Assembly (NCBI GenBank): GCA_021205385.1
Contig: JAJPXQ010000091.1
Location: forward strand, 1-50,207
Reading direction: 5' to 3'
Length of the DNA: 50,207 nucleotides
Source of the DNA: Lachnospiraceae bacterium
GTDB taxonomy: Bacteria > Bacillota > Clostridia > Lachnospirales > Lachnospiraceae
Notes under the pieces: model-generated
Database searches by the model: none
What the model was told of the DNA's origin: nothing
Seen by the model: only the letters and a program-made list of their open reading frames with translations
Position numbers and translations under genes: made by a program
In this document: in pieces, positions 20,691-33,691 of the stretch
How positions within the stretch are numbered: position 1 is the first letter of the stretch
Layout: every line of letters starts with the position of its first letter

Positions 20691-20918
20691 ATGAAAGAAT
20701 ACGAAGTAGTACACGAGATCTTCAATGAATGCGCGAACAATCAGATGCGGGACATCTTTTTCGAGGAGCTCTCGTTGGACGACCCGGAGCAGTACATCCG
20801 GAACAAACACAAGGATAAAGAGCTGAGTCTTGAGCGGGAGGATCTCGCGGATGGGACGATTATCTATCACGTCGAGACATCGGGGATCTCGCAGCGGTAT
20901 ACGTTCACAGAGATATAA
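20691..20918 (+). CDS. Small hypothetical protein, third gene of the MoxR-VWA operon
   Basis: 75 aa, acidic and soluble, beginning MKEYEVVHEIFNECANNQ. I do not recognise a family. GAGGAAGAG precedes ATG 20691, and it follows the VWA stop by 9 bp, so it is probably co-translated. The sequence has many charged residues and one Cys and no membrane segment. Its stop is embedded in the start of the long direct repeat, whose first hairpin can serve as its terminator. Confidence 0.7.
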   Translation: MKEYEVVHEIFNECANNQMRDIFFEELSLDDPEQYIRNKHKDKELSLEREDLADGTIIYHVETSGISQRYTFTEI

Positions 20919-21105
20919 AAAAACTTCCGTCGCCGGAAGTGTTATTTTCGAGGGAGTGGGGGCTTTTGGGAAAGCCCCCAAGTGTTATGAATGAAATACG
21001 GATATGTCGCCCTTACGTGTACTATAATAGCAATGAAATATGTCCAAATTGTGGCGACGGTCTAAAAGCATTCTAAAATTCATAAATAAAATTTGAAGAA
21101 ATTTT
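20914..21105 (+). repeat. Long direct repeat, copy A (complete)
   Basis: Matches 25134-25306 with an exact offset of 4220 bp and about 8 mismatches in 165 bp. It contains a hairpin ACTTCCG/CGGAAGT (20923-20940) followed by a short T tract, a second 9-bp hairpin GGGGGCTTT/AAAGCCCCC (20958-20979), and a 29-codon microORF. The AT-rich tail (21077-21105, AAAATTTGAA) is absent next to copy B but reappears at 33398-33430 beyond the integrated element. Copy A therefore shows the uninterrupted unit. Confidence 0.9.
20987..21076 (+). CDS. 29-aa CPNCG microprotein, copy A (putative)
   Basis: ATG 20987 to TAA 21076. The peptide starts MNEIRICRPYVYY and holds NEICPNCGDGLKAF, a zinc-ribbon-like CxxC with one further Cys. 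The same ORF occurs at 25207-25296 with two amino-acid changes near the end. There is no Shine-Dalgarno directly before the ATG. GAGGGAG at 20950-20956 lies upstream of the 9-bp hairpin, which would bring it to about 8 nt from the ATG if folded. Other frames are also open here, so translation is unproven. Confidence 0.45.
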   Translation: MNEIRICRPYVYYNSNEICPNCGDGLKAF

Positions 21106-21154: not shown

Positions 21155-21430
21155 TTACGAAACATCAGGTTTTGAATCGGAAAGCGTCGATTTTTCCAAG
21201 ACGCTGTCATAATATAATTCATCAGGACAGATGTCCTGACCATTGGCCCATTCCACCGAATAGCCGTTCGCAAACACGCTCTTAAAATATGTTGTATCAC
21301 CAAGTTCTCCGTACCAGCTTCCCTTAATATATGGTTTTACATCAAATATTTTCGTTTCTCCGTTGTCAAAGAGAATGCGGAGCCGATAGTTGGATAGAGC
21401 ACTGACGGTCTTTGCTGTTGGTCTTAGCAT
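21155..21430 (-). CDS. DUF2442 domain protein
   Basis: 91 aa. The DUF2442 pattern is clear: YRLRILFDNGETKIFDVKPY, then FKSVFANGYSVEWANGQD and DICPDELYYDS. Function of the family is not established. It is often found next to DUF4160 genes, as here, and such pairs have been proposed as toxin-antitoxin-like modules. It lies 27 bp downstream of the DUF4160 gene on the same strand and ends about 80 bp from the long direct repeat. Confidence 0.85.
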   Translation of the reverse strand: MLRPTAKTVSALSNYRLRILFDNGETKIFDVKPYIKGSWYGELGDTTYFKSVFANGYSVEWANGQDICPDELYYDSVLEKSTLSDSKPDVS

Positions 21431-21457
21431 AAGCTTATATTCTCCTCTTGTTTTTAC

Positions 21458-21724
21458 TTATTTTAACGGATCAATTTTAAAATAGCCATCGCCTTCATCT
21501 AATAATTTCCAGTTGGCGAGAAGTTCATCTTCATGTAGTGTCATCCAGGCTTCAATCAGTTTTAGCTTATTGCGGGGAAACGTTCCTTCCAGAATCTCCC
21601 CGTCTAAAGCAATCACAATTTCATCGTCTCCATACAGGCAGTGGATATGCGGCTTGTGATGTCTTCCGCCTTTCTCGCTTTGCATTCGTATGATAATTCC
21701 ATAAAACATAGACAGTGTGGGCAT
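21458..21724 (-). CDS. DUF4160 domain protein
   Basis: 88 aa. It has the DUF4160 core: MFYGIIIRMQSEKGGRHHKPHIHCLYGDDEIVIALDGE, with the conserved HxPHIH-type histidines, and a C-terminal LIEAWMTLHEDELLANW. The role is unknown; adjacency to DUF2442 is typical. AAGGAG precedes its ATG on the minus strand, and a TATACT box at 21775-21770 could be its -10. Together with DUF2442 it forms the distal part of the minus-strand cassette behind the restriction-modification gene. Confidence 0.85.
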   Translation of the reverse strand: MPTLSMFYGIIIRMQSEKGGRHHKPHIHCLYGDDEIVIALDGEILEGTFPRNKLKLIEAWMTLHEDELLANWKLLDEGDGYFKIDPLK

Positions 21725-21798
21725 TTTTGATAATCTCCTTTTTCATAAAATCTTGGTAATTACAAAAAGAGTATAGTAGAAGTCTATCAGTTTTTTTG

Positions 21799-24700
21799 CT
21801 ATCGAAAATAAGTAGTTATCAGCCTTTCGTTTTCTGATTTGAGTATAGCAATCTTAGTCTTGTTGTCTTCGGCAGTAGCTTTTTTGAGCTTTTGCTTTAA
21901 TGAATTTATTTCCTTTACAATGGCTTTTTGTTCGTCCTTAGGTGGAACTTGTATAACCAGATTTGCTACTCTTTGTGCCGAGGCCCTGTTATGCCGTGAA
22001 AACTTTTCAAACTCCCCTTCTACTTGCAATGCCAATGCCATATATTCTGGCATGATTTTGTCACTGTGAATTCGCAGAACGCCGCAGTGATCAGTGGGAT
22101 AGAATGGCTGATTGGCTGGGATAATGTTGACCATCCAGTCACCGTCGATGCCCCAGAGAATGGAAGGGATGGAAAAATCTGTCAGATTCTGTTTGTCTAT
22201 GCGGCCAAATTCCTCGAATACATTGGCACTGTAGACAGGGATAGTACCATCTTCCGTGATTTCCGTGGAAAGCACGCGGTTCCCAATGCTGATCTCAAAT
22301 ATAGACGTGTCAGACAGACGATAATTTGTCAGGCCGGGTGTATCTTTGAGCACGCGGGTGCGGGTGGTTTTAATTGTCTTGCTAAAGGAAACACCGGAAA
22401 AATCCAGCATATCCTGAAGGCGAAGACGATCATAATATTTCTCTAATTCAGGGACATCATAAATATTTTCGGAAAAACTGTTTCTGATCATGCCTGCCAG
22501 AGTCCTATCGTCATAACGGTCGGAATCATTGTAGAGCAGTCCGCCTGCCTTTATGATCTGAATTCCTTCCTGCCCTTTTCGGTTGCTCCATTTGTAGCCA
22601 AGGAAAGTTTCCTGATTTTTATTATCATTTGGAGCAGTGACAACGAGCGTAGACTGACGGTATACAAGCGCAAAATACAACAATTTCTCTTGTTCCAGTG
22701 AAAAAGCATAGTCATAGAAATGCTGATTGAACCATCGCATTTGTTCATCCACAGATGCACGTATGAATCCTTTTTGCCTTATCTTTGCTCCATATTCGGA
22801 GGAAGCCAGAAAAGCAGAGTAATACTGGCCAAAATAAGAGTCTTCTTTCCATTCATCATAATTTTTGGCACGATTTGTAAAATGGCAATAGACTTCCTTT
22901 GTAACACCGATTTTCCGCAGATAACCATGATAAATTGCGGAGTCTTCCCAGTCTGTAATATCTGCACCTTCATAGATGGCATGTACGCTGTCGCTCGCCA
23001 GATCTGTGTGTTTGGGAGGCTCCTCAAATTTCTGTAAAAACAAAATCACAGTATTTGTACCAGTTGCACCAAAAGTCTTACTGCCAAATTGTGCGATCGC
23101 GCGAATGTAGAAATTACGAAGCAAAAATTCCCGGGCAGCAATGAAGCTTTCGTTCTCCTTATTGAGAATGCTGCTCGGCAGAATGACGGCGGCGACGCCT
23201 AACGGTTTTAAAAGCTGAGAAATGCGTTCTACAAATAAGGTTTCTATTTCAGAACCGTCGTTAGAGATTTTGTCGAGCACTTCAAGGCTATTGTCCTTCA
23301 ATTTCAGGTGCTGCTTGAAAGCTTTGACGGAGTAGGGCGGATTTGCAGCTAAAATATCGAATGAATATGGCGTGATGTTCTTGTCCGGATAATTTTCCAG
23401 ACCGTCGCCAAATATGATGTTGCCGCCTCCCGCACCATGCATGAACAGTGAAATCTTGGAAACTCGTGCCAGACGATAGTCTTTTTCAATGCCGTAAACT
23501 TTGTTTTCGACCCATGCGTCAGGCAGCTTTATTTCCGGGTCAATTTTTTTAACGATGTTGTTCACGGCCTCACATCCTTGCGTGAGAAAATGGCCGGCAC
23601 CGCAAGCGTAGTCTACGATTTTTGGGCATTCCATACCGTCGGAGTTGCGGACAATGCTCTCGAGTGGCAGACTGTCCCAGATAAATCGAGTGATTGGAAT
23701 TGGCGTAAAAAATTGTCCCTCATTTTGCTTGAAACCTTTGTTTAACAGTTGTTCAAAGAGGTCGCCGAGCATCTGGACATCGGCTGAACCAATAATGCGA
23801 TATTCCTGAAAAAGCTGAACTACTTCCACCAAAATCTTGCCGTTCTGGTAGAATAGATCCTCATTGTGGATATCTATGAAGGAAAAATCATTGTTTGTGT
23901 AAAATTTAAGAATGCGCAGAGTATCCCTTAAATCCTGAATCATTTTCTGACGGCGTTGACCAGTATACTGTTGCACAAGATTTTCAGCATAATCATCAGG
24001 CACATAGAGAATTTTTTCCCGCATGAATTTTTCCATGCCTTCCTTATACAAGCGCTGAAGTCTGTCCTGCAGAGATTCGTAGGTATCAGTTCCCACTTTA
24101 TACTGGAATTCGACGATATCATGATCGCTTTTTTGCATTTCATCCACAAGCTTGCAGATGAATAGGGCAACTAAACGGTTGAATGCATTTTCCTTGTCAG
24201 AAACATTATTATGACGCAATATTTCTTCAAAACGATTGACAATGCGGTCATTTTCGCTGAAATCTTTTAGATCAGACTTTCGCAGCGGTTTTACTCCGAT
24301 ATTATAGGCGACAGAATCATCGCGGAAAATTATATCTCCGCAGAAGCGCTTTTCATAAGTTTCATCCCAGGTGTTGAATAACTCGGCGGTCGTGTGGGCG
24401 TAAAGGTACAGGCGAATTGTTGGGTCATTTTTGGCAGATGCTATAATATTGGCATCATCTGTGCAGTCAATACTGTCTGTGTCATAAGTCAGCTTTCCAT
24501 CATCTAGATCAGATGCATACAGAGCAAGCCACTTACAACTCTTATCCTGCTGCCAGTAAGAGAAGAGCTGTCCACCATTTGTCAACATGTTCTTTTTCTC
24601 TTTGGCGTATTCGTTTCCGGGAGTTTTGCATTCTATAATGAAGAGTAAATTCTCATCCTCATCACTTACACAGATATCAGCGCGTCCGCTTTTTCCTTCG

Positions 24701-24990
24701 TGCCCTAGTAGCCATTCTCTTTCCAGTTCGATATGTTCGGGGCGGTAGCCTTTTTCCAGGAGACGATTGACGCATTCTAACACAACAAAATTTTCTGGAT
24801 TAGAAAAATTGCAGGTCGAGCGATGCGTAACGGTAAGTCCCGCTTCCTCTGGATAAATAATTTTTTCTGAATCCAGATCCAAGATAATGGAGCAGGAAAA
24901 AGCCTCGTAATATTTTTCATACTTTTTGGGAGAAGAAGATATAAACCCCATCGTCTTAATAGCTTCTTCAATATTCTGTCGGTTTATCAT
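21799..24990 (-). CDS. Single-chain restriction-modification enzyme (type IIG-like R-M-S fusion)
   Basis: About 1063 aa. The N-terminal nuclease-like part has GRADICVSDEDENLLFIIECKT, a D...ExK core. The middle is an N6-adenine methylase: motif I DYACGAGHFLTQG near residue 460 and catalytic NPPY near 550 (LAANPPYSV). The C-terminus is a target-recognition domain (FEISIGNRVLSTEITEDGT, VPPKDEQKAIV) ending in a coiled coil, as in HsdS. Restriction, modification and specificity thus sit in one polypeptide. The frame opens at an ATG at 25035, but TATAAT at 25039-25034 overlaps that codon and looks like the -10 box, so ATG 24990 is preferred, although its ribosome binding site is weak. Base composition is AT-rich, unlike the flanking genes. 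Confidence 0.88.
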   Translation of the reverse strand: MINRQNIEEAIKTMGFISSSPKKYEKYYEAFSCSIILDLDSEKIIYPEEAGLTVTHRSTCNFSNPENFVVLECVNRLLEKGYRPEHIELEREWLLGHEGKSGRADICVSDEDENLLFIIECKTPGNEYAKEKKNMLTNGGQLFSYWQQDKSCKWLALYASDLDDGKLTYDTDSIDCTDDANIIASAKNDPTIRLYLYAHTTAELFNTWDETYEKRFCGDIIFRDDSVAYNIGVKPLRKSDLKDFSENDRIVNRFEEILRHNNVSDKENAFNRLVALFICKLVDEMQKSDHDIVEFQYKVGTDTYESLQDRLQRLYKEGMEKFMREKILYVPDDYAENLVQQYTGQRRQKMIQDLRDTLRILKFYTNNDFSFIDIHNEDLFYQNGKILVEVVQLFQEYRIIGSADVQMLGDLFEQLLNKGFKQNEGQFFTPIPITRFIWDSLPLESIVRNSDGMECPKIVDYACGAGHFLTQGCEAVNNIVKKIDPEIKLPDAWVENKVYGIEKDYRLARVSKISLFMHGAGGGNIIFGDGLENYPDKNITPYSFDILAANPPYSVKAFKQHLKLKDNSLEVLDKISNDGSEIETLFVERISQLLKPLGVAAVILPSSILNKENESFIAAREFLLRNFYIRAIAQFGSKTFGATGTNTVILFLQKFEEPPKHTDLASDSVHAIYEGADITDWEDSAIYHGYLRKIGVTKEVYCHFTNRAKNYDEWKEDSYFGQYYSAFLASSEYGAKIRQKGFIRASVDEQMRWFNQHFYDYAFSLEQEKLLYFALVYRQSTLVVTAPNDNKNQETFLGYKWSNRKGQEGIQIIKAGGLLYNDSDRYDDRTLAGMIRNSFSENIYDVPELEKYYDRLRLQDMLDFSGVSFSKTIKTTRTRVLKDTPGLTNYRLSDTSIFEISIGNRVLSTEITEDGTIPVYSANVFEEFGRIDKQNLTDFSIPSILWGIDGDWMVNIIPANQPFYPTDHCGVLRIHSDKIMPEYMALALQVEGEFEKFSRHNRASAQRVANLVIQVPPKDEQKAIVKEINSLKQKLKKATAEDNKTKIAILKSENERLITTYFR

Positions 24991-25033
24991 TGGAGCTGTA
25001 CTTTGCCTTTCTGTTTTGGTTTCCGTCAAATAC

Positions 25034-25062
25034 ATTATAAAATAGGATGCGGATAAATGAAA
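25034..25062 (-). promoter_or_regulatory. Candidate promoter of the R-M gene
   Basis: Minus-strand TATAAT at 25039-25034; the -35 region 17 bp upstream (TTTCAT) is weak. The box overlaps the first possible ATG. Confidence 0.4.
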
Positions 25063-25206
25063 GAGAAGATCGAGATTTTTGTTTGCAATCTGTTAGTTGT
25101 GTTAGCTGCTTTTGAAAATGCGGAATCCTGCGGGAATAAAAAACCTCCGTTGCCGGAAGTGTTGTTTTCGAGGGAGTGGGGGCTTTTGGGAAAGCCCCCA
25201 AGTGTT

Positions 25207-25296
25207 ATGAATGAAATACGGATATGTCGCCCTTACGTGTACTATAATAGCAATGAAATATGTCCAAATTGTGGCGATGATCTAAAAGAATTCTAA
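25207..25296 (+). CDS. 29-aa CPNCG microprotein, copy B (putative)
   Basis: Second copy of the microORF, ending CPNCGDDLKEF and stop. The 3' end of this ORF is the attachment site of the integrated element, and the att core supplies its last codons and stop, so the reading frame is unharmed. A longer frame begins at 25057, but its N-terminal part is not shared with copy A. Confidence 0.45.
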   Translation: MNEIRICRPYVYYNSNEICPNCGDDLKEF

Positions 25297-25306
25297 ACTT
25301 CCTAAA
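25274..25306 (+). repeat. attL of the integrated element
   Basis: 33-bp site matching attR (33374-33406) at 31 positions; the exact core is GATCTAAAAGAATTCTAAA at 25279-25297. Offset between the sites is exactly 8100 bp. Confidence 0.8.
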
Positions 25307-25331
25307 AAATAAATTATCTTGTTTTGTCCTG

Positions 25332-25362
25332 CTCCATTATTGCTTGAATAATGGGGCTTTTT
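25332..25362 (+). terminator. Terminator at the left end of the element
   Basis: CTCCATTATT (25332-25341), loop GCTTG, AATAATGGGG (25347-25356), then CTTTTT. It would stop transcription entering the element from the microORF side. Confidence 0.7.
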
Positions 25363-25404
25363 CGTGTCGTTCATTTTATCATGGCTTATCATATTCCGCG
25401 TGGA

Positions 25405-25427
25405 GTTGTGTCAAAAGTTGTGTCAAA
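25405..25427 (+). repeat. Left end repeat (two GTTGTGTCAAA units)
   Basis: 23 bp made of GTTGTGTCAAA, one A, and a second GTTGTGTCAAA. An identical copy in the same orientation lies at 33284-33306 near the right end. Likely arm-type binding sites for integrase or excisionase. Confidence 0.75.
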
Positions 25428-25647
25428 ATCTGAGTACGAACGATGGTGTAAATGAATCGCCCGACACATTGCTAAAGAGTAGGACGCCGGGCGGAGCTGT
25501 TTGCTGAATTATAAATTACAGTTATTAGAAATAAATGCTTGCACTCTCTTGGGCGTTCTGGTAAACTTGGGATAAACAGGGAAAACCTGATAAAACCGAT
25601 CTGTGAATGGACACAGATTGCTAACCAAAAACAACTGGAGGTAGATT
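25428..25647 (+). other. Left-end non-coding region of the element
   Basis: 220 bp between the end repeat and the excisionase-like gene, with no ORF I can support. It holds inverted repeats: CGCCCG/CGGGCG (about 25458-25493) and ATCTGTG/CACAGAT (25599-25618). These could be operators or integrase/excisionase sites. Confidence 0.5.
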
Positions 25648-25866
25648 ATGAGATCATTATTTTCAAATGCCATTTCTGGCGAAAACACCACGATTATGCC
25701 AACCAATCTTAAACCCGCTGATGCTTGTCGGCGATATGCGCGTGGACATAACTCGCTTATGTCGGACGCACGCGCGGCCGGGGCTGTTATCCGTATTGGG
25801 AGGAGCGTATTGATAAACGTTCCCAAAATGGATAGTTATTATGCCTCTCTTGCGGGGGAGGACTGA
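25648..25866 (+). CDS. Excisionase-like DNA-binding protein (DUF6462-like)
   Basis: 72 aa. The second half (LKPADACRRYARGHNSLM...GAVIRIGRSVLINVPKMDSYY) has the layout of small winged-helix excisionase-type proteins common in Lachnospiraceae mobile elements. It should bind the element's ends and direct excision with the integrase at 32090-33226. GGAGGT precedes ATG 25648. Being first after attL fits an excision gene. The match is by sequence pattern only. Confidence 0.65.
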   Translation: MRSLFSNAISGENTTIMPTNLKPADACRRYARGHNSLMSDARAAGAVIRIGRSVLINVPKMDSYYASLAGED

Positions 25867-25868
25867 CT

Positions 25869-26168
25869 ATGTTGGAAGAAATTCTCAAAGGGGGCAGGGA
25901 GCAGGCCACGCCGACGCGGGACTTGATGCGGATTCTCAGACTTGACAGCGAGCGCGAGCTGCGATTGCTCATTGCACATGAACGGGCGGAGGGTGTGCCG
26001 ATTTGTTCGACAACCACGCCGCCGGGAGGCTATTTTCTCCCGGAAAATGCGGCAGAAGCAAGGCATTTTGTGGCATCTATGGACAGCAGACTGCAAGAAA
26101 TCACGAAGGCCACGGCGGCAGTGCGGAAGTACTTGGAAACGATGGAGGAAGGTGAGGAAGATGGCTAA
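25869..26168 (+). CDS. Small HTH-type phage protein, unknown role
   Basis: 99 aa, starting 3 bp after the excisionase-like gene. The N-terminal part (TRDLMRILRLDSERELRLLIAHERAEG) looks like a short winged-helix fold. PICSTTTPPGGYFLPEN resembles a pattern seen in small phage regulatory proteins. The C-terminus is a probable coiled coil (LQEITKATAAVRKYLETMEE). It overlaps the next start by 8 bp. Specific function not recognised. Confidence 0.6.
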   Translation: MLEEILKGGREQATPTRDLMRILRLDSERELRLLIAHERAEGVPICSTTTPPGGYFLPENAAEARHFVASMDSRLQEITKATAAVRKYLETMEEGEEDG

Positions 26169-26934
26169 CCGACGCATGTTCTCCCTTGATGTAGTGGACA
26201 CGGATGCATTTCTTGAAATGCCGCTGACGACCCAAGCATTGTATTTTCATTTGGGACTTCATGCAGATGATGATGGCTTTGTGTCCGCGCCAAAGAAGGT
26301 TTTGAAGATGACGGGATGCAAAGACGATGATTTGAGGGTGCTGATTTCCAAAAATTACATTATCCCGTTTGACAGCGGAATCATAGTGATTACGAACTGG
26401 AAAGAAAACAACTATTTGAGCCCTGACAGATACAAGCCTACACGATTCCAAAAAGAGCTTGGCCTTTTAAGTGAAAATAATAGAGTTTATCAACTGTCAA
26501 CCAATGGTATACCAACCGTCAACCAATCGGGAGGCAGTTGGTATACACAGGAAAGAGAAGGAGAGGAAAGTAGAGAAGAGGAAAGGAAAGATAAAAGTAA
26601 AAGCGCGCAAGCGCGCCGGGACTCTGCCTCTCTGTTGAACGATCTGCTCCCAGAATATGATTTTTCTGAGGTGATGGTGGAAGCTCTGAGAGCATGGATA
26701 GCCTATAAGTCAGAGCGTCGGGAAGGATACAAGGAACGCGGTTTGAAAGCTCTGCTGTCGCAGGTGGCGGCGCGTGTGAATGAATACGGGGAGCAGGCCG
26801 TATGTGACTTGATGGAGGAATGCGCGGCGAATGGGTGGCGTGGAATCATTTGGGACAAGCTCGGCGGCGCGAAAGAACGAAACACAAAGGACAGGATCGC
26901 CGACCGCGTGAAGGGAGTTGATGATTGGGTATGA
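26161..26934 (+). CDS. Phage replisome organiser-like protein
   Basis: 257 aa from ATG 26161, with GGAGGAAGG 7 bp upstream; the open frame continues to 25942 but only through the previous gene. The N-terminal ~100 residues (RRMFSLDVVDTDAFLEMPLTTQALYFHLGLHADDDGFV) are a winged-helix replication-initiation domain typical of phages and integrated elements. A charged linker rich in Glu/Arg/Lys follows. The C-terminal part (ALLSQVAARVNEYGEQAVCDLMEECAANGWRGI) resembles DnaD/DnaB-type helicase-recruiting tails. It probably binds the element's origin and recruits host helicase, together with the next gene. Confidence 0.8.
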   Translation: MANRRMFSLDVVDTDAFLEMPLTTQALYFHLGLHADDDGFVSAPKKVLKMTGCKDDDLRVLISKNYIIPFDSGIIVITNWKENNYLSPDRYKPTRFQKELGLLSENNRVYQLSTNGIPTVNQSGGSWYTQEREGEESREEERKDKSKSAQARRDSASLLNDLLPEYDFSEVMVEALRAWIAYKSERREGYKERGLKALLSQVAARVNEYGEQAVCDLMEECAANGWRGIIWDKLGGAKERNTKDRIADRVKGVDDWV

Positions 26935-27824
26935 CGCGAGAAGAGTTTGGAACGCTTGTCAAGGGTATGAAAGCCGTTTATGTACAGGCTACTTTTCTAC
27001 CGGATGCGGACGCATTCAACGTCTGGTATGGACTTTTGCAGGACTTGCCTTATGATCTGGTGAGCATGGCGATTCAAGAGCACATGCTCACAGAGAAATT
27101 CCCGCCAACAATCGCGGATATCCGGGCGAAGGTGGCAGAAATCACAGCGCCGGAAGAGCTGCGCATGGGAGAGCTTGAGGCATGGGGGCATGTTTCGGAT
27201 GCAATTAACCATTCGATGTTTCTTGCGGATGCAGAAATGGAGTTTAATAAGCTGCCGCGCGTCTGTCAGATAGCTGTTGGAAATTCATCGACTTTGCAGA
27301 GCTGGCGTAACACGAGAGATCAAACAGCACAATCTCATTTTCTCCGCACGTATCGTGAAACTGTCGAGCGGCTCAAAAGGGAGCGGATGCTGCCGCCGGG
27401 GACGCGTGAACAGATCGAGGCCGCACGTCCAAAGAAAGAGCTTCCAAAGTCAGACCCGGAAAATTGCAATGCCTGTATCGGTTGCATGGAGCTGCGGGAA
27501 GTTGAGGCAGAAAGCCGTTTTGATGACGATGAAAGGATTAACGAAAGCCTAGAAGACTTGTGGCTGATTTACGGGCACTGTGAATACTTGAAAGAAGTCT
27601 ATCGGGGTGTATATGTCCAGTGTCTCAACAAATATGAGTATCTGGAAGAGGGCATTTTAGAGATTCAGAGCGTGGCGGAGTCGTATCTGGAATATAAGCG
27701 GAGGAATCACTGGAATGTGCAGGAGTTTGGCGTTTTCCTTGCGGAATTTGCTCGACACAAGGAAGAGTGGGAGGGCGGACTGTATGACGAAAAAGACGTT
27801 CATTCTATCGCGAGGATTTCTTGA
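26925..27824 (+). CDS. Helicase-loader-like protein (G39P type) with an extra C-terminal region
   Basis: 299 aa from TTG 26925, 7 nt after GGGAG; ATG 26931 two codons later is the alternative. The first ~75 residues (MTREEFGTLVKGMKAVY, FLPDADAFNVWYGLLQDLPYDL, LTEKFPPTIADIRA) match the loader/inhibitor of phage G40P helicase. The central part (YRETVERLKRERMLPPG) also fits. Such proteins usually end near residue 180. Here an uninterrupted frame adds about 120 residues containing CNACIGCMELREVE and an acidic, Tyr-rich tail. I do not recognise that part; it may be a fused metal-binding or regulatory domain. Confidence 0.75.
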   Translation: MGMTREEFGTLVKGMKAVYVQATFLPDADAFNVWYGLLQDLPYDLVSMAIQEHMLTEKFPPTIADIRAKVAEITAPEELRMGELEAWGHVSDAINHSMFLADAEMEFNKLPRVCQIAVGNSSTLQSWRNTRDQTAQSHFLRTYRETVERLKRERMLPPGTREQIEAARPKKELPKSDPENCNACIGCMELREVEAESRFDDDERINESLEDLWLIYGHCEYLKEVYRGVYVQCLNKYEYLEEGILEIQSVAESYLEYKRRNHWNVQEFGVFLAEFARHKEEWEGGLYDEKDVHSIARIS

Positions 27825-27860
27825 TGGATTTCCAAAATCACATGAAAGGGGGCGAAATAG

Positions 27861-28238
27861 TTGCGAAGTCGGAAGTATGACGAGGTACTTTTACAGTGCT
27901 GCCTTGACGGTCAGACGGTTGCGCAGACTATGAAGGCAACGGGGTTGAGTAAAAAGACCATTTGCGAGTACCGGGCAGATCGGGACTTCCAAAACGAACT
28001 GGCGCGGAGACGTGTTGCAGCAGTTCAGGCGGCAGTCAGTAAAATGTCAATGAGCCTGTCGGAGATCGTCGAGGTTGTGATTGCGATCGCAAAGGATGAC
28101 AAAATTTCCGCTCAGATTCGGCTTAATGCGGCTCAAATTCTGCTGAGCCAATGCCGGAATTGGACGGAGACGGCGGACATCCTGACGCGGCTCGAAGCTA
28201 TAGAAACGGCTATCAATGGTGAAAAGGTGTCCAGTTAG
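27861..28238 (+). CDS. Helix-turn-helix protein, phBC6A51/terminase-small-like
   Basis: 125 aa from a TTG start at 27861, preceded by AAAGGGGG; no ATG suits. The N-terminus has an HTH (LDGQTVAQTMKATGLSKKTICEYRADRDF). Behind it is a helical repeat region (SLSEIVEVVIAIAKDDKISAQIRLNAAQILLSQC). This layout is typical of small phage HTH proteins annotated as phBC6A51 family, some of which act as terminase small subunits. If so here, it could redirect packaging of a helper phage. No large terminase is present. An 18-codon ORF (27825-27881) bridges the gap from the previous gene but shows no family. Confidence 0.6.
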   Translation: MRSRKYDEVLLQCCLDGQTVAQTMKATGLSKKTICEYRADRDFQNELARRRVAAVQAAVSKMSMSLSEIVEVVIAIAKDDKISAQIRLNAAQILLSQCRNWTETADILTRLEAIETAINGEKVSS

Positions 28239-28249
28239 GGGGTGCAGCT

Positions 28250-28702
28250 ATGAAGGACATAGAACGGCGTTTGACAACGCTTGAGGGCGCAGCAGAGGCT
28301 ATTTTGAGTGAGCGGCGGAGGCATGAACCTTATGCGCTGGTGAAGCCTGTGTCAATTTTGCGGGATGATGTGATTCTGGAATTTTACGAGCGCGGCGCAT
28401 ACACAGAAAGGCCGGAAGCTCATGAGAATCTATCACTGGATGAAGTTCTGGAGCAGTTGAGGAAAAGACCGGAAATAAGTTGCGTATTGGTGAGCTATGG
28501 GGATTGCACGGAGTGGCTACATAGCACGATACAGACAAGCGATCTTTACACAGCTGAGCAAAAGCGGCGCTTTAAAGCCGAAGATGCAGAACAGTTTGAG
28601 GAAATCCGGCTGTTGTATGAGCTTCCAGAATGGGAGCAGGTGGTTGAAAGAATATCAAAATGGCCGCAAAATGGGCGGCTGAGAAAGGAGTTTTTAAAAT
28701 GA
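28250..28702 (+). CDS. Hypothetical protein of the element
   Basis: 150 aa, acidic, no recognised domain. It begins MKDIERRLTTLEGAAEAILS, a likely short coiled coil. Later it has LSLDEVLEQLRKRPEISCVLVSYGDCTEW and a charged C-terminus. GGGGGTG precedes ATG 28250, and the stop overlaps the next start by 4 bp (ATGA). It sits in the rightward replication/packaging transcript. Confidence 0.65.
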   Translation: MKDIERRLTTLEGAAEAILSERRRHEPYALVKPVSILRDDVILEFYERGAYTERPEAHENLSLDEVLEQLRKRPEISCVLVSYGDCTEWLHSTIQTSDLYTAEQKRRFKAEDAEQFEEIRLLYELPEWEQVVERISKWPQNGRLRKEFLK

Positions 28703-29583
28703 GTGTAGTTTGTTGTGGAGTCTGTTGTGATGCGGAAATTTATGAGAAGTACCGGGGAAAGACATTTGTTATTGGCAGTCGTGAGCTCGGGCTTGCGGAG
28801 ATCGAGGACATCGTAACGGGGCGGAGCAGCGCAGAATACCAGAGAAAGGACCGCGATATTTACGACGCGGCAAGGGCGGTATATGACAGGATCGCCGGAG
28901 AAATCAAAAATTATTATGCAGCCAGAGACGGCAGAAAGGATTTTACAGCTATGAAGCACAGCAATTTTAAGGACTATGTAGCAGACATTCGGATGGTTTA
29001 CAACAGCGCGGCGGAACAGATTGCAGCAGCCACGGCAACGCGGGACGTGGCGGTGGAGACATGGAAGGACACGCAGCAGCGCAGCAAAGACGAGGCAACG
29101 CTTGCACGAGGCAAAAGCCGCTATCTGGACGCTATGAACGATTACCGGGTAAAGGTGGAGGAGATCAAGACCGCGACAAAAGAGGCCGTCAAAGAGCTTT
29201 CTGGTGCGTATGACGAGCATCTGGCGGCATTCTATGAGGTTACGCCGGACATGGTGGACGCGAACACGGTCACGATTCTGAAAGCCGGGATTTGCGACGC
29301 GGGCGATCTGGCGGCACTTGCAGAGCGATTCCATGGCAATGTCACAATGCTGCGAATGATCGGCAAAGCAGCGGCCACAGCTGACGGAGCTGGCGATCTG
29401 GCGGCACGGATTAAAGCAGCAGGACATGGACGCAGAGAGCGTGAGCTTTTCGACGAAGCTTTAGAAGTCGCGGAAAGGGTTATTTCGTCAGATGAAAAAT
29501 GGGCGGCGATCAACCTGAAACGCCTTGAAAAGCGTATTGCAGAAATAAGCGAGAATTTCGAGAGATTGGTGGCGAGGCCATGA
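28699..29583 (+). CDS. Hypothetical helical phage-type protein
   Basis: 294 aa from ATG 28699, with AAAGGAG 8 bp upstream; a start at 28660 is unsupported. The N-terminus contains five Cys within the first 11 residues (CCGVCC pattern), possibly metal-binding. The rest is strongly helical, with Ala/Glu/Arg-rich stretches (VDANTVTILKAGICDAGD; DLAARIKAAGHGRREREL; AINLKRLEKRIAEISENF). I do not recognise a family. Coupled by ATGA overlaps to both neighbours. Confidence 0.65.
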   Translation: MSVVCCGVCCDAEIYEKYRGKTFVIGSRELGLAEIEDIVTGRSSAEYQRKDRDIYDAARAVYDRIAGEIKNYYAARDGRKDFTAMKHSNFKDYVADIRMVYNSAAEQIAAATATRDVAVETWKDTQQRSKDEATLARGKSRYLDAMNDYRVKVEEIKTATKEAVKELSGAYDEHLAAFYEVTPDMVDANTVTILKAGICDAGDLAALAERFHGNVTMLRMIGKAAATADGAGDLAARIKAAGHGRRERELFDEALEVAERVISSDEKWAAINLKRLEKRIAEISENFERLVARP

Positions 29584-29786
29584 GAACAACGTCACCTCTT
29601 GGGGCGATCAAAGAGTATTGCTTGGAGTGCTGCTGTGGTCAGAAAAACGAAGTGAAGCACTGCACTGTCACGGATTGCGCCCTGTATGATTTCCGTTTTG
29701 GTCACAAGCCCAAAAACACCGAAAAAAACGGGGGTTTTTCGGACGATGTATCTACGGACGGGGAAATTATCATTGAAAGCGTTTGA
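29580..29786 (+). CDS. Small Cys-rich zinc-binding phage-type protein
   Basis: 68 aa. It opens MRTTSPLGAIKEYCLECCCG and continues with KHCTVTDCALYDFRFGHKP. This four- to six-Cys pattern (CxxC...CxxxxC) is found in small conserved proteins of Gram-positive phages and mobile elements, and probably binds zinc. Its role is unknown. It overlaps the previous stop (ATGA) and is the last gene before the bidirectional hairpin at 29874-29915. Confidence 0.7.
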   Translation: MRTTSPLGAIKEYCLECCCGQKNEVKHCTVTDCALYDFRFGHKPKNTEKNGGFSDDVSTDGEIIIESV

Positions 29787-29873
29787 ATCCAAAAAACCTT
29801 AAAAAAATATGGGGTTTTGAGAGCAAAAAGGGCATTGTAGAAGCGCCCTCCGCCTGTTTAAGCGTCCTGCTCC

Positions 29874-29915
29874 CATTCAGAAATGAAAATAATCGGGAGC
29901 AGGACACACATTTAC
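29874..29915. terminator. Large inverted repeat between convergent genes
   Basis: GTCCTGCTCCC (29874-29884) pairs perfectly with GGGAGCAGGAC (29905-29915) across a 20-nt loop. It separates the rightward genes from the leftward toxin gene, whose stop codon falls inside it, and may terminate both. T tracts are poor. The same 11-bp motif recurs elsewhere in the element. Confidence 0.55.
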
Positions 29916-30184
29916 AGGCCGAACAGGTCAGAATGCGATCCGGTGCGGACAAGGTAAAGTTCTTCCCCGTCCACGCGGTAGATCAGCAACCAGTCCGGCA
30001 GGACGTGGCATTCACGACATCCGGTATAATTCCCAGTGAGCATGTGCTCCCTGTTTTTATCTGGTAACGGTTCAGGGATGCGGAGCGTGTCAATAATGGC
30101 CTGTAATAGATCAAGATTGTAGCCGCGCTTTTTGCACAGTTTATAGTCTTTCTTGAATTTTGTACTGGCGTTTAATTTCAACAT
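29912..30184 (-). CDS. YafQ-family mRNA interferase toxin
   Basis: 90 aa. It has the YafQ/RelE core: FKKDYKLCKKRGYN, then TGCRECHVLPDWLLIYR and LVRTGSHSDLF. The histidines and Asp expected for ribosome-dependent mRNA cleavage (H-x-x-x-D and RTGSHSDLF) are in place. The open frame begins at 30244, but ATG 30184 starts 4 bp after the antitoxin stop and gives the usual toxin length. Part of a two-gene operon with the antitoxin upstream. Confidence 0.9.
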   Translation of the reverse strand: MLKLNASTKFKKDYKLCKKRGYNLDLLQAIIDTLRIPEPLPDKNREHMLTGNYTGCRECHVLPDWLLIYRVDGEELYLVRTGSHSDLFGL

Positions 30185-30188
30185 GGGC

Positions 30189-30410
30189 TTAATCCTCGTC
30201 GAGCATGGCGAAGAAATCCGCAGTTGCTCCCGTGAAGTGTTCACCTGCTCCCGTCTGGATCATGTGATCGACCTCTGCAATGGCTTCCAATGTCTCGGTG
30301 TTTGGCGTGTGTTCTGGTACAGCTGCACCTTGCAGGTAAGCAATAACATAGACCAGTTTACTTTCTGGTATTTGGTCAATAAGGTCTTTTGCAAAGTCTC
30401 GGTTGCTCAT
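30189..30410 (-). CDS. Antitoxin partner of the YafQ-type toxin
   Basis: 73 aa from ATG 30410, which has AAGGAAGG at the right distance; an earlier in-frame ATG (30428) overlaps that site. The C-terminus (ETLEAIAEVDHMIQTGAGEHFTG...DFFAMLDED) is the toxin-wrapping tail seen in RelB/DinJ-like antitoxins. The N-terminus (SNRDFAKDLIDQIPESKLVYVIAYLQGAA) is a short helical domain seen in clostridial antitoxins rather than a classic ribbon-helix-helix. It lies directly upstream of the toxin. DNA-binding autoregulation may depend on the RHH gene upstream instead. Confidence 0.8.
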   Translation of the reverse strand: MSNRDFAKDLIDQIPESKLVYVIAYLQGAAVPEHTPNTETLEAIAEVDHMIQTGAGEHFTGATADFFAMLDED

Positions 30411-30455
30411 AATGCACCTTCCTTTCATGGTTTATTGTACGCGGTGGCGGTGTGG

Positions 30456-30641
30456 TTATGCGTCGCGCTCGATGCGTTCATCGATGGCTTTTTTTATATA
30501 GCCGTTGATGGTTTCACCTGCTGCCCCTGCTGCCGTTTTGATCTCCTCATACTTTTCTTTCTGAACATCAAGGGGGATGCGCTTTAATTTTGATTTTTGA
30601 TAGCTGTACAAGTACTCTTTGCGCTGCTCAGTTAATGCCAT
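30456..30641 (-). CDS. Ribbon-helix-helix (Arc-like) regulator
   Basis: 61 aa from ATG 30641, preceded by AGAAGG. The fold is readable as a basic strand (SKLKRIPLDVQ) followed by two helices (KYEEIKTAAGAAGETINGYIKKAIDERIE), as in Arc/MetJ-type repressors. It is transcribed away from a region with three TTATGTACATAA palindromes that overlap its own candidate promoter and the divergent rightward one. It is therefore the best candidate for the repressor of that switch. Confidence 0.85.
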   Translation of the reverse strand: MALTEQRKEYLYSYQKSKLKRIPLDVQKEKYEEIKTAAGAAGETINGYIKKAIDERIERDA

Positions 30642-30714
30642 TTGGATACCTTCTTTCTGTTCTGGTGGTTCACGGGGACGCAAAAATAATCGGCCTCTCC
30701 TCCATTATGGCTAT

Positions 30715-30820
30715 ATTATAACATCGAAGGCAAGCTATGTACATAACAAAAATGCACAAAGTTATGTACATAATTTTGTGAAAAATGTCAATAGACAGTT
30801 ATGTACATAACTGCTATAAT
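30715..30820. promoter_or_regulatory. Divergent promoters with three operator palindromes
   Basis: Palindromes: TATGTACATA at 30736-30745, TTATGTACATAA at 30762-30773 and at 30799-30810. Rightward promoter: TAGACA (30792-30797), 17 bp, TATAAT (30815-30820), with the third palindrome filling the spacer. Leftward promoter: TGTACA (30743-30738), 17 bp, TATAAT (30720-30715), with the first palindrome on its -35. Repressor bound to all three would shut both directions. Confidence 0.8.
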
Positions 30821-30970
30821 ATAATCATCAAGAGAAACAAGAACAGCGAAACCGGAGCAGACGGGGACGTGACGCCGGACAGGATGAAGGGAGATTGTGA
30901 GGGCCGCAGGAGCCGCCTAATACTTCAAAAGCCTGCCGGGGCTGTCCCACCAAAAGATGGAGGTAACACA
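30821..30970 (+). other. 150-nt leader of the rightward small-gene transcript
   Basis: GC-rich leader with no supported ORF; an in-frame ATG at 30884 exists but lacks a good ribosome site. Short complementary runs (GCCTGCC, GGGGCTGTCCC) suggest local structure. GGAGGT at about 30959 serves ATG 30971. Confidence 0.4.
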
Positions 30971-31249
30971 ATGACAGAGAGGATGATTGAAAACCGCGTT
31001 GCGAAGCTGAACGAGCTGAGCGGTCAGATCACAGAGCTGGAGGCGCAGGCGGAGGCAATCCGGGCGGAGCTGAAAGCGGACATGGAGACGAAGGGCGTGG
31101 AGGAGCTGAAAACGAAGCACTTCACAATCCGTTGGAAGGAGATCATGAGCAGCAGGCTTGACGGGAAGAGATTAAAGTCAGAGCTGCCGAGCGTGTACGA
31201 CAGATTTTGCAGAATCAGCACGAGCCGTCGATTCACTGTAACGGCGTAA
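30971..31249 (+). CDS. Small phage-type protein, Gp157-like C-terminus
   Basis: 92 aa from ATG 30971 with GGAGGT 6 bp upstream. The N-terminal half is a coiled coil (RVAKLNELSGQITELEAQAE). The C-terminal half (HFTIRWKEIMSSRLDGKRLK...STSRRFTVTA) resembles the end of siphovirus Gp157-type proteins. Role unknown. First gene of the transcript driven by the operator-controlled promoter at 30792-30820. Confidence 0.65.
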   Translation: MTERMIENRVAKLNELSGQITELEAQAEAIRAELKADMETKGVEELKTKHFTIRWKEIMSSRLDGKRLKSELPSVYDRFCRISTSRRFTVTA

Positions 31250-31256
31250 CAAAAAG

Positions 31257-31286
31257 CCCTTGTCAGAGCGGCAACTCTGACAGGGG
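31257..31286 (+). other. 12-bp stem-loop after the Gp157-like gene
   Basis: CCCTTGTCAGAG (31257-31268), loop CGGCAA, CTCTGACAGGGG (31275-31286). It is strong but has no T tract, so it is more likely an mRNA-end stabiliser or attenuator than a simple terminator. Confidence 0.6.
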
Positions 31287-31370
31287 AGCAACCCAACAAC
31301 ACACAAAAAGGGATGCAGGCGGATTATACCACGTCCTGCTCCCGGCTGTCAAAAGAAGGAGGAGAAAGCA

Positions 31371-31553
31371 ATGGCGAAAATAGTAGGGACAGCGGCTGAC
31401 GGAAAGCCCATCTATGAGCTGCCGGAGCATTCGTATGATCTGCTGCTCAAACTCTGGGCGCGGTCGCAGGGGATGGAGATTGTCAGCGTGAAGAAGATAC
31501 CGAAGGAGGAAGCCGGTCACCGGCTCTTGGAAGAAGGGAGAGAGATGAAGTGA
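31371..31553 (+). CDS. Small hypothetical protein of the element
   Basis: 60 aa, mixed charge, starting MAKIVGTAADGKPIYELP. GGAGGAG precedes ATG 31371. No family recognised. Its TGA stop is shared with the GTG start of the next ORF (GTGA overlap), so the two are coupled. Confidence 0.65.
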   Translation: MAKIVGTAADGKPIYELPEHSYDLLLKLWARSQGMEIVSVKKIPKEEAGHRLLEEGREMK

Positions 31554-31726
31554 CAACACAGGAGCAAATATTTTTGGTGGGCGTGGAGATGGTCGATATT
31601 TTGGAAAGGACAACGCCGGAAAGATTTGGGCAGTACAAAAAGGATTTCATGGAGCAGGTCGCAGATCATCCGGGTGCCAGAAAATTCATTGAAGCAGTAT
31701 TTGATATCGCAGAGAAAGGGCGGTAA
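31550..31726 (+). CDS. 58-aa hypothetical protein, GTG start
   Basis: Starts at GTG 31550 inside the previous stop codon and ends TAA 31726; GGGAGAGAG lies just upstream. The peptide begins MTTQEQIFLVGVEMVDILER and includes FGQYKKDFMEQVADHP. It is helical and acidic with no known family. The coupled start and the ribosome site make it a plausible gene despite its size. Confidence 0.55.
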   Translation: MTTQEQIFLVGVEMVDILERTTPERFGQYKKDFMEQVADHPGARKFIEAVFDIAEKGR

Positions 31727-31730
31727 CGGT

Positions 31731-31880
31731 ATGGACGAAAATAGTACGGTCAAAGACCTGTTGAATCAGGTGGCCAACACAAGGCATTGGGTGGACGAGA
31801 TAAACAAGGCATATCTTGGCATAGATACGACTGAGATCATCAAGAAGCTGGTGGAGAAAGGGGAAAGAGATAGATCATGA
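31731..31880 (+). CDS. 49-aa hypothetical protein
   Basis: ATG 31731, 4 bp after the previous stop, preceded by AAAGGGCGG. Sequence starts MDENSTVKDLLNQVANTRHW and ends in a charged helix (IIKKLVEKGERDRS). Probably helical; no family recognised. Its stop overlaps the next start (ATGA). Confidence 0.5.
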   Translation: MDENSTVKDLLNQVANTRHWVDEINKAYLGIDTTEIIKKLVEKGERDRS

Positions 31881-32023
31881 TTGAGATTTATGTGGGCGAG
31901 CTGCGGATGGATGAGAAAGCTCTGCAATATACATCGGACGAGGAGATCAGAAAGCTCAGGGAGATCGCCGGTAACATTGCAAAGAGGTCACGCACGGAAG
32001 AACAGCAGGCGAAAGAAAGATAG
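31877..32023 (+). CDS. 48-aa hypothetical protein
   Basis: ATG 31877 to TAG 32023, overlapping the previous stop, with GGGGAAAGAG upstream. Sequence MIEIYVGELRMDEKALQYTS followed by a charged helix (IRKLREIAGNIAKRSR). No family recognised. Last of four coupled mini-genes before the integrase. Confidence 0.5.
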   Translation: MIEIYVGELRMDEKALQYTSDEEIRKLREIAGNIAKRSRTEEQQAKER

Positions 32024-32038
32024 CAGATTAACGACACC

Positions 32039-32063
32039 GGGAGCAGGACGATCACCTGCTCCC
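32039..32063 (+). terminator. Hairpin upstream of the integrase
   Basis: GGGAGCAGG (32039-32047), loop of 7, CCTGCTCCC (32055-32063), then ATTTATC. Perfect 9-bp stem built from the element's recurrent motif. The T tract is weak; it may attenuate read-through into int. Confidence 0.55.
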
Positions 32064-32089
32064 ATTTATCAAGAGAAAGGTGGGACGAT

Positions 32090-33226
32090 ATGGCAGATTT
32101 ACCAAAGGGCATTACACTGAGAGCAGATGGGCGCTATATGTGGCGCTTCGTATACGAGGGCGAGGCTTATTGCGGATACTGTAAAACGATCAGCGAGGCG
32201 AAGAAAGAGCTGCGAGATCGGCGCTATGAAGTTGAACACGGTATCAATTCAAAACAGCGGGCGGTTACGTTGAACGCATGGTTTGAGGAGTGGCTTGACA
32301 CGTACAAGATCGCAGTTTGCAAAGAGTCCACAATCCGCACATACAGGTATACTTACGAATGGCATATCAAGCCGATGCTTGGCGGGAAACAGCTTCGAAA
32401 GATACGGCCAGACATGATCCAGAAACTTCTCAACAAAGAGGCCGGAGAGTTCTCCGAGGCGACGGCAAAAAGAGTCAAGGCTCTGCTCCACAACTGTTTA
32501 CAGCAGGCGGTCAGAGTTGAGCTTATATCAAGGAATCCCATGGACAGCACCAACCCACCCAGATACAGGAAGACGGAGAAGAGGGGCGCGCTTTCAGAGA
32601 AGGACGAACGGGCATTTCTGGAAGAAGCGAGAACAAGCCAATACTATCCGCTCTATCGCATGGCGAGTCTTACGGGCATGAGAAGCGGGGAGATTCTGGG
32701 GCTGCAATGGGACAACGTTGATTTCCAAAAGGGAGAGATACACGTCACACACACATTGAAAAACGACACCGGGCGCGGTCAGTATCTTGACACTCCCAAA
32801 TCGGAATCGAGCCGTCGTATTATACCGATGGAAAAGGGCGGCGCGCTTTACAATCTGTTGAGGAAACAGCGGCAAGATCAGCGCCTACAGCGCATTCAGG
32901 CCGGGCAATACTGGCAACCGCGTGAAGGCCTTGAAAACATGGTTTTTACAACGAGATACGGGACGCCGTTCTTTGCCGTGAGCGTCTGGACAGATCAGAA
33001 GCGGATTATCGAACGGCTGCGGGAGCAGGGCGTGGAGATCGGTAACTTTTCCTTTCATGGTTTGCGGCATTGCTTCGCAACAAGGTGCATTGAGAACGGC
33101 ATGGACCTGAAAACCTTACAGGCAATTCTCGGGCACTCCACGCTTTCAACAACGGCTGATTTATATGTCGATGTGATGGAGGAAACGAAGCGCGAAGAGA
33201 TGAAAAAGATCGCGGCGGCGTTATAA
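32090..33226 (+). CDS. int: Tyrosine recombinase/integrase (Tn916/phage type)
   Basis: 378 aa. The N-terminal arm-binding domain (LPKGITLRADGRYMWRFVYE) is followed by a core-binding SAM-like domain (residues ~60-165) and the catalytic domain. Catalytic residues are visible: Arg198 in LTGMRSGEIL, His323 and Arg326 in HGLRHCFA, His349 in LGHSTLSTTADLY, and nucleophile Tyr359. AAGGTGGG precedes ATG 32090. The gene is next to attR with a terminator after it, the usual position. It should catalyse recombination between attL and attR at the microORF 3' end. Confidence 0.95.
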   Translation: MADLPKGITLRADGRYMWRFVYEGEAYCGYCKTISEAKKELRDRRYEVEHGINSKQRAVTLNAWFEEWLDTYKIAVCKESTIRTYRYTYEWHIKPMLGGKQLRKIRPDMIQKLLNKEAGEFSEATAKRVKALLHNCLQQAVRVELISRNPMDSTNPPRYRKTEKRGALSEKDERAFLEEARTSQYYPLYRMASLTGMRSGEILGLQWDNVDFQKGEIHVTHTLKNDTGRGQYLDTPKSESSRRIIPMEKGGALYNLLRKQRQDQRLQRIQAGQYWQPREGLENMVFTTRYGTPFFAVSVWTDQKRIIERLREQGVEIGNFSFHGLRHCFATRCIENGMDLKTLQAILGHSTLSTTADLYVDVMEETKREEMKKIAAAL

Positions 33227-33234
33227 GACAAGGG

Positions 33235-33265
33235 CAGCAGGCCAGTGTATGAGCCTGCTGTTTTT
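33235..33265 (+). terminator. Integrase terminator
   Basis: CAGCAGGC (33235-33242), 10-nt loop, GCCTGCTG (33253-33260), TTTTT. Confidence 0.85.
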
Positions 33266-33283
33266 CTGCCTTTTTCATGAAAA

Positions 33284-33306
33284 GTTGTGTCAAAAGTTGT
33301 GTCAAA
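33284..33306 (+). repeat. Right end repeat (two GTTGTGTCAAA units)
   Basis: Identical to 25405-25427 over 23 bp and in the same orientation, here about 90 bp inside attR. Probable arm-type recombinase sites. Confidence 0.75.
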
Positions 33307-33373
33307 TTCAAAAACGGGAGCAAAAGGAAGCTGAAAAAAGCCAGAATTTACAGCGTTTCTTGTCCTGCTCCCT

Positions 33374-33430
33374 GCGACGATCTAAAAGAATTCTAAAATT
33401 CCTAAACAAAATTTGAAACAAATCTTAAAT
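33374..33430 (+). repeat. attR plus the displaced right end of long repeat copy B
   Basis: 33374-33406 matches attL at 31 of 33 positions (core 33379-33397). The following AT-rich stretch (to about 33430, with AAAATTTGAA) aligns with the tail of intact copy A at 21077-21105. Joining 25297 to 33398 rebuilds an uninterrupted repeat. Confidence 0.8.
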
Positions 33431-33501: not shown

Positions 33502-33509
33502 GCGACGGA

Positions 33510-33598
33510 CATGAGGGAGTAGTTGGCACTTTCCAGTGTTGCAAGTCAACATACTGATCCTGAGAGGATCTGGCTTGTATGAAATAACGAGACTCATG
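33510..33598 (+). ncRNA. yybP-ykoY (Mn2+) riboswitch aptamer
   Basis: The closing P1 stem is CATGAG (33510-33515) with CTCATG (33593-33598). The conserved family segments lie inside it: GGGAGTAG on the 5' side and AACGAGACTC on the 3' side, with two stem-loop arms between. The class senses Mn2+ and usually turns on Mn exporters. Position, promoter, following terminator and a GDT1-family gene all agree. Confidence 0.8.
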
Positions 33599-33664: not shown

Positions 33665-33691
33665 TGGCGGCATACATGAGGAGGAATGCTT

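Follow-up and report, generated by a model that had tools for sequence, protein, structure and literature searches.

An 8.1-kb element integrated at the promoter edge of a putative small-RNA gene in a Lachnospiraceae genome

The nearest precedent, and a direct one, for a small-RNA (sRNA) gene as an integration target is the PrrF1/PrrF2 locus of Pseudomonas aeruginosa, whose two tandem sRNA genes have, in the published account of that locus (PMC8373256), been entered by islands with different recombinases. This was the only paper on sRNA genes as attachment sites that surfaced in our literature search; others may be in print. Here we describe an 8.1-kb element integrated at the edge of what looks like an uncatalogued sRNA gene in a gut bacterium of the Lachnospiraceae. 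The DNA analysed (the window) is 50,207 nt long and is the whole of contig JAJPXQ010000091.1 (C143) of a 3.1-Mb genome in 167 contigs. The likeness to the P. aeruginosa locus, as described in PMC8373256, extends to tandem, ~90% identical sRNA genes in an intergenic position, to islands with unrelated recombinases (PAGI-97B and others) that leave at least one RNA gene intact, to imperfect direct repeats (159/156 bp), and to a restriction system in the cargo of PAGI-97B. The islands reported there measure ~20-60 kb and lie at or near the 3' ends of the RNAs, whereas the element described here is only 8.1 kb long and sits at the promoter edge, and a second class of element enters the RNA body and brings a replacement 3' half. 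The RNA also differs in having no Rfam family match, and the host belongs to a different phylum.

Three other groups of elements are comparable. Islands targeting tRNA and tmRNA genes (Islander/TIGER; PMC4383910, PMC12424338) are described as entering an RNA gene and restoring it with an element-borne piece; here the target is a putative sRNA gene outside Rfam that is entered at two points, including one within the promoter region. Among phage-inducible chromosomal islands (PICIs) and Streptococcus satellite prophages (PMC6813308), Javan595 and Javan230 are annotated as 9-10 kb long with the integrase at one end. They share with our element a DnaD-like protein followed by a helicase loader and the lack of annotated structural genes, but their integrase and regulator diverge from the remaining genes, whereas here the far-end integrase is co-oriented with most genes, the small regulator lies mid-element and the match to a terminase small subunit (TerS) is weak. 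Phage-inducible chromosomal minimalist islands (PICMIs) are reported to be minimal satellites of 6 kb that always use the same integration site and have 17-bp direct repeats (PMC10803314); unlike our element, they belong to Vibrionaceae, lie downstream of the protein gene fis and encode AlpA and a primase rather than DnaD-like and G39P-like proteins (PMC10803314).

An integrated element and its empty site

The window contains a 172-nt repeat, found by a repeat finder as copy A (20918-21089) and copy B (25138-25309), which are 95% identical. Copy B is interrupted near its right end by the element (Table 1). The 19-bp core GATCTAAAAGAATTCTAAA is present exactly at 25279-25297 and 33379-33397, a spacing of 8100 bp; 100 shuffles yielded no match to it at up to three mismatches. 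When one mismatch is allowed, a 17-bp version of the core matches the whole genome at three places, namely these two and the site in copy A; a reversed control pattern matched at one. The GC content drops from 0.54 in the flanks to 0.49 in the element. The 11-mer GTTGTGTCAAA occurs in the window only at 25405, 25417, 33284 and 33296, i.e. twice per element end. By analogy to lambda-type integrases, we read these pairs as candidate arm-type integrase sites.

Comparison with related genomes confirms that the element is real and integrated site-specifically. When the flanks are joined without 25298-33397, the resulting 443 nt align to G002:C20 in one collinear match with one gap and 97.5% identity; in G002 the repeat is followed directly by its tail and the GDT1 gene. 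Copy B is nearer to the G002 sequence than copy A (97% versus 93% identity). G001 and G013 are also empty at this site. Copies of the repeat that we call type 1 all occupy one place, orf75 - repeat - GDT1 or deacetylase, and type-2 copies lie elsewhere. The promoter side of the repeat is unoccupied in the type-1 loci of 11 of the 13 relatives fetched, and in these 11 a match to GDT1 or polysaccharide deacetylase begins ~90-340 bases past the repeat. The other two, G007 and G008, have the attL-type junction of the window, followed in G007 by the left arm sites and in G008 by only a few dozen bases past the core. In G008:C63 a YafQ relative and an arm-site region persist without a core.

These results bear out most of what a sequence-only reading of the window had proposed. 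It had described the two exact cores 8100 bp apart and a 33-bp attL/attR match with two mismatches, and we find both at the same coordinates. It had taken copy A, which is nearly intact, as an internal empty-site reference and had stated that the tail lost from copy B returns after attR; indeed, 33374-33428 belongs to a 55-nt family in the repeat finder and is 85% identical to the right part of copy A (21054-21108). Its model of site-specific integration at copy B, which depended on the existence of strains with an empty copy B, agrees with attL, attR, the integrase at one end and the empty sites of G002, G001 and G013.

Among the 46 integrase loci that we fetched, the 17-bp core within three mismatches is found only at the window's own locus. 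The nearest other integrases in this set are 59% (G062) and 43% identical. Integrases this far apart can be expected to have changed site, and differing cores therefore speak neither for nor against the integration model. The integrase of the element carries the motifs TGMRSGE, HGLRH and LGH. The annotated phages gave no DNA match to the element and no match to its TerS-like protein. In the viral contigs, a 16-mer of the core occurs in 50 stretches, one of them with the full 19-mer, none with a longer att context and none with element proteins; the sRNA pattern has no match there.

Two groups of distant integrase relatives also end beside suggestive sequences. Five of them (L064, L065, L066, L067, L080) adjoin a common motif, AAGTTTTGTTTTA..GGAAGGTC..CGAAC, recognised by eye, which in L065 and L080 precedes a similar ORF. 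It is reminiscent of a preQ1-type riboswitch leader; Rfam at the gathering score gave no hit there. Possibly it is another regulatory-RNA integration site. In L068, L069 and L070, sequences like the sRNA control region described below (ATGTGTCCAAAGTATGT-like repeats, TAGTATA, hairpin) lie beside integrases ~36% identical to that of the element; the covariance model has no match to them.

Table 1. Coordinates of the element, its attachment sites, the putative sRNA gene copies and associated genes in the window.
Feature	Position	Strand	Evidence or remark
Integrated element, core to core, 8.1 kb	25279..33397	+	Exact 19-bp cores; empty site in G002; GC shift
attL	25274..25306	+	33-bp match to attR, two mismatches
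attR	33374..33406	+	33-bp match to attL, two mismatches
Third core-like site, inside copy A	21059..21077	+	2 mismatches versus core
Left pair of candidate arm-type repeats GTTGTGTCAAA	25405..25427	+	12-bp spacing
Right pair of candidate arm-type repeats GTTGTGTCAAA	33284..33306	+	12-bp spacing
Putative sRNA gene, copy A	20918..21015	-	RNA start probably near 21015
Putative sRNA gene, copy B	25138..25235	-	Hairpin and terminator, terminator at low end; RNA start probably near 25235
Putative promoter region of copy B	25236..25297	-	-10 near 25241-25249; 11-bp-period direct repeats; upstream edge = att core
Cargo between copies A and B: Type IIG restriction-methylation enzyme, DUF4160, DUF2442	21155..25035	-	PADLOC REase_MTase_IIG 3e-284; Pfam
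DUF6462 protein, candidate excisionase	25648..25866	+	Pfam PF20063 2.3e-8
Phage protein of unknown function	25869..26168	+	phrog_2113, 7.6e-13
DnaD-like helicase loader	26161..26934	+	PHROG 4.6e-59
G39P-like helicase loader/inhibitor	26931..27824	+	PF11417 3.6e-5; phrog_9804 2.9e-37; phrog_2289 5.5e-11
TerS-like helix-turn-helix protein	27861..28238	+	PHROG 3.8e-5
Unknown protein travelling with TerS-like gene	28250..28702	+	Same order in G263, G062
Unknown protein	28699..29583	+	Relatives between TerS-like and tape-measure genes in G263, G062
YafQ-type toxin	29912..30181	-	PF15738 8.6e-35
Probable antitoxin partner of YafQ-type toxin	30189..30407	-	Position; no family match
Arc-like small regulator	30456..30641	-	phrog_13890 4.1e-12 (unknown function); phrog_582 Arc-like repressor 0.0023
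Three ATGTACAT palindromes, candidate operators	30737..30808	.	Between divergent genes
Tyrosine integrase, 378 aa, intact, right end of element	32090..33226	+	PF00589 5.2e-25, PF14659 8.9e-14; TGMRSGE, HGLRH, LGH motifs

The target looks like a small-RNA gene

Read on the minus strand, the repeat looks like an sRNA gene of ~98 nt. It comprises, in this order, a TATAAT-like box, a conserved leader, a GC-rich hairpin, a ACUCCCUCG stretch and a terminator hairpin with a U-run. A -10-like hexamer matching at 5/6 positions or better occupies a fixed place in 13 of 14 type-1, all 22 type-2 and 24 of 29 type-3 copies, and direct repeats of 11-bp period precede it in types 1 and 2 (seen by eye, unscored). 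All of the 73 distinct copies can form the hairpin with at least 6 bp. From the third pair inward it is made of several standard pair types (counted with no shuffle control), and by these compensatory changes the hairpin appears to covary. An intrinsic terminator is predicted on the minus strand of 65 of the 73 copies, and a simple count of T-runs gives 66. The hairpin count and the terminator count of 65 come from folding each sequence separately, which replaced an automatic consensus fold.

A covariance model finds copy B at 25127-25241 (97.6 bits) and copy A at 20907-21021 (102.2 bits), both being in its training set; trained partly on the window's own copies, it detects three copies in this genome. 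Rfam 15 at the gathering score has no match in the window, nor at the repeats of L020, L045, L095 and L110 (tRNAs only), and the best permissive match is RNAI at E 0.21. With no tRNA or tmRNA gene in the window, such a gene is rejected as the target. Repeat matches are present in all 17 genus genomes and in one genome outside the genus (61 searched). Family-wide, the covariance model has matches in at least 6 of 397 genomes (4 of 334 genera), a lower bound because strict filters were applied and nine candidates were scored per genome. A scan of named genomes returned 75 stretches, titled Lachnospiraceae, Lachnoclostridium, Merdimonas, Merdisoma and other Clostridia.

Part of the conserved sequence is fixed by the search pattern with which copies were gathered, so that its invariance is to some extent built in; 30 copies with loci were found independently of it. 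The 73-copy set includes L135 and omits L185 (a cut-off left fragment), copies near contig ends and identical RNAs. Redundancy filtering kept 64 sequences, of which 46 were chosen by hand and carried forward, and 23 of those entered the covariance model; seven of the 30 rows of alignment A1, without a clear terminator-like tail, are among those left out of the 46.

Three observations concern the RNA itself and its surroundings. In L044, the type-2 copy of G008, the promoter-side repeat GTGACCAAAGTGTGG is tandemly duplicated by a 22-nt insertion, which would fit an array of protein-binding sites. It is speculation that the pyrimidine-rich ACUCCCUCG stretch could pair with ribosome-binding sites. 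Near four type-3 copies (L133, L153, L189, L196), a tyrosine-recombinase gene starts ~280-315 bp away on the promoter side.

The sequence-only reading had seen a different target in the same DNA, the 3' end of a microORF on the opposite strand whose stop codon the element would restore. This 29-codon ORF is open in both window copies and in 10 of 14 distinct type-1 copies; on that reading, integration would leave its final codons and stop unchanged. The 29-aa peptide that it would encode has a CPNCG motif and weak Pfam matches below the cut-off (DUF1272, E 0.02; Zn_ribbon_20, E 0.035). However, only 11 codons of the ORF remain in G002, despite 93% DNA identity, and 16 in G001, G013 and G014, and in 14 of 14 type-2 copies it stops after 16-18 codons. 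The ratio of nonsynonymous to synonymous polymorphism (pN/pS) is 1.73 over the 14 type-1 copies and 1.57 over the 10 open copies alone. Substitutions among type-1 copies are not concentrated at third positions, codon position 2 being the most variable. The reading frame is thus not kept under purifying selection, and what is conserved tracks the hairpin, terminator and promoter of the opposite strand. The set of 14 excludes L135, the promoterless left remnant of G012, which past its junction is element DNA; the diverged copy of G007 lacks the search word, so its ORF was not read and it is absent from both the type-1 and the 73-copy sets. Given the broken frames and the pN/pS values we reject the microORF as the target, and a small protein repeat in this role seems to us very improbable. 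Nor is the surprise that had been expressed at a protein-gene target well grounded, even were the ORF real: streptococcal elements are reported to integrate at the 3' ends of the small protein genes rpsI, rpmG and rplL (PMC4701971), and such 3' ends are ordinary integrase targets.

Two integration points in one putative RNA gene

The core of the element coincides with the outermost well-conserved block of the type-1 copies (CTAAAAGAATTCTAAAA), ~30-50 bp upstream of the -10 box. A second class of element has entered the RNA gene at another point. In G012, 12,497 bp lie between a promoterless left fragment and a full RNA copy, bounded by perfect 112-nt repeats that span terminator, hairpin and leader; in G004 the inserted element measures 10,187 bp and its repeats 50 nt. 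The integrases of both adjoin the full copy and are 29% (G012) and 27% (G004) identical to the window integrase. G011 has an integrase fragment at the same place, while G005 and G015 have left fragments, with no integrase in the stretch read. The G012 element codes for proteins resembling a repressor and a minor head protein, together with an anti-repressor, a replisome organiser and a G39P-like loader. As judged from these junctions, integrases of two classes interrupt one RNA gene at different sublocations, and a full RNA gene persists in each of G000, G004 and G012.

We propose that the element's own tyrosine integrase placed it into the 19-bp core at the promoter-distal, upstream edge of the sRNA gene, presumably by binding the paired GTTGTGTCAAA arms at each end and exchanging strands within the core. 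As the element carries its own copy of the core, the RNA gene, the -10 box and the direct-repeat region are left intact, and the DNA further upstream of the core is displaced 8.1 kb to the right. The locus is reused by the second class, which enters the RNA body and brings a terminator-bearing substitute for its 3' half. Sequence comparison shows the integration with its boundaries and empty site, the signature of an RNA gene and the existence of the second class. We regard this model as a whole, a satellite-like element at the edge of an sRNA gene at a locus reused by a second class, as very likely.

Several results weigh against it. The right junction (attR) was not found in G007 or G008, where the element looks decayed. 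G062, which has the closest integrase elsewhere, is not among the six family genomes with an sRNA match, and a search of viral contigs, by a method that detects close relatives only, found none for either the integrase or the 294-aa protein. Support for the TerS assignment is weak, with no significant hit from fold searches. The automatic consensus fold (MAFFT/RNAalifold) has only 3 pairs, which we attribute to a 2-nt shift in the stem of the type-2 copies that makes this fold uninformative. When both strands were tested in one run, 64 of 73 copies passed the terminator criterion as read on the minus strand, but 35 of 73 did so on the plus strand too. The strand call therefore rests on the stronger minus-strand signal and the position of the -10 box, and a plus-strand orientation of the RNA is disfavoured. 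Transcription of the RNA and excision of the element are predictions from sequence.

A more far-reaching idea is that the sRNA control region serves the satellite as a switch. Since the core forms the outermost conserved promoter block, integration swaps the DNA upstream of it, and integration or excision would reset expression of the RNA; because the second class replaces the 3' half, satellites would compete for, and re-edit, one host regulatory RNA. We consider this scenario improbable.

Gene content, cargo and significance

Phage satellites such as PICIs are ~8-15 kb in size, and the 8.1-kb element falls within this range. A scan of 17 element proteins revealed no capsid, portal, tail or large-terminase family, and no structural PHROG apart from the weak TerS match. 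The element has its own replication genes in the DnaD-like and G39P-like loaders; no primase was seen. This gene content suggests a phage satellite, and we think the element is probably satellite-like.

The main rival to a satellite is a decayed prophage remnant, which would have retained attL, attR, the integrase, replication genes and part of the packaging region after losing its late genes. The TerS-like protein has relatives in five further genomes of the 397 sampled, and in the best two (G263 and G062) relatives of the next two genes follow in the same order and lead into a tape-measure gene, so that this block is probably phage-derived; the decayed look of the related copies in G007 and G008 would also suit a remnant. 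A single-sequence model of the TerS-like protein (mean pLDDT 81) has no fold match at E <= 0.001, and its weak viral fold hits include proteins named terminase small subunit. Against a remnant, the 8.1 kb are compact, the integrase is intact, the arm sites are symmetric and replication genes are present. The DnaD-like protein has relatives in satellite phages of 9-14 kb (Javan421, 595 and 230 of Streptococcus; 47-48% identity over the N-terminal half), though in full phages too. Furthermore, the 12.5-kb element in the same RNA gene of G012 is independent and has a similar plan of regulator, anti-repressor, replisome organiser, G39P-like loader and integrase. We consider a remnant rather unlikely and prefer the satellite-like reading.

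The ATGTACAT palindromes lie between the Arc-like gene and the genes leading to the integrase and are possible operators of the element's switch. Between them and the integrase are a protein weakly like siphovirus Gp157 and small ORFs.

The RNA gene is duplicated around the Type IIG cargo, which has a lower GC content (0.42). This creates three tandem cores, and circles excising the cargo only, the element only or both jointly are conceivable. The arrangement may reflect accretion of a cis-mobilizable (CIME-like) module or homologous recombination. In the first case the duplicated RNA gene and cargo would have been accreted by the same integrase at the copy A core, in keeping with the core-like site in copy A (2 mismatches), the 55-nt tail that copy A retains, homologous to the attR flank, and the accretion of CIMEs at attR described in PMC5704250. 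However, the 172 nt shared by copies A and B extend well beyond the core, and plain homologous recombination explains them equally; in other relatives, orf75 and the RNA gene are separated by different DNA (~0.4-10.4 kb), and no second full copy is present. Accretion is possible but somewhat doubtful.

To the right of the element, 33502-33665 (+) matches the yybP-ykoY manganese riboswitch below threshold (33.1 bits against a gathering score of 45, E 1.2e-7). The gene that follows directly (33686-34369) encodes a GDT1-family transporter, and a manganese riboswitch here is plausible.

What appeared to be a microORF thus looks like an sRNA gene that integrases of two classes target at different sublocations, in the manner of tRNA genes. 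Since sRNA genes often lack annotation, their use as integration targets is readily overlooked. If the finding is general, comparison of empty sites would be a route to discovering conserved RNA genes. The RNA itself, with three copies in this genome by the covariance-model search and matches in all 17 genomes of the genus, is a candidate regulator absent from current catalogues.

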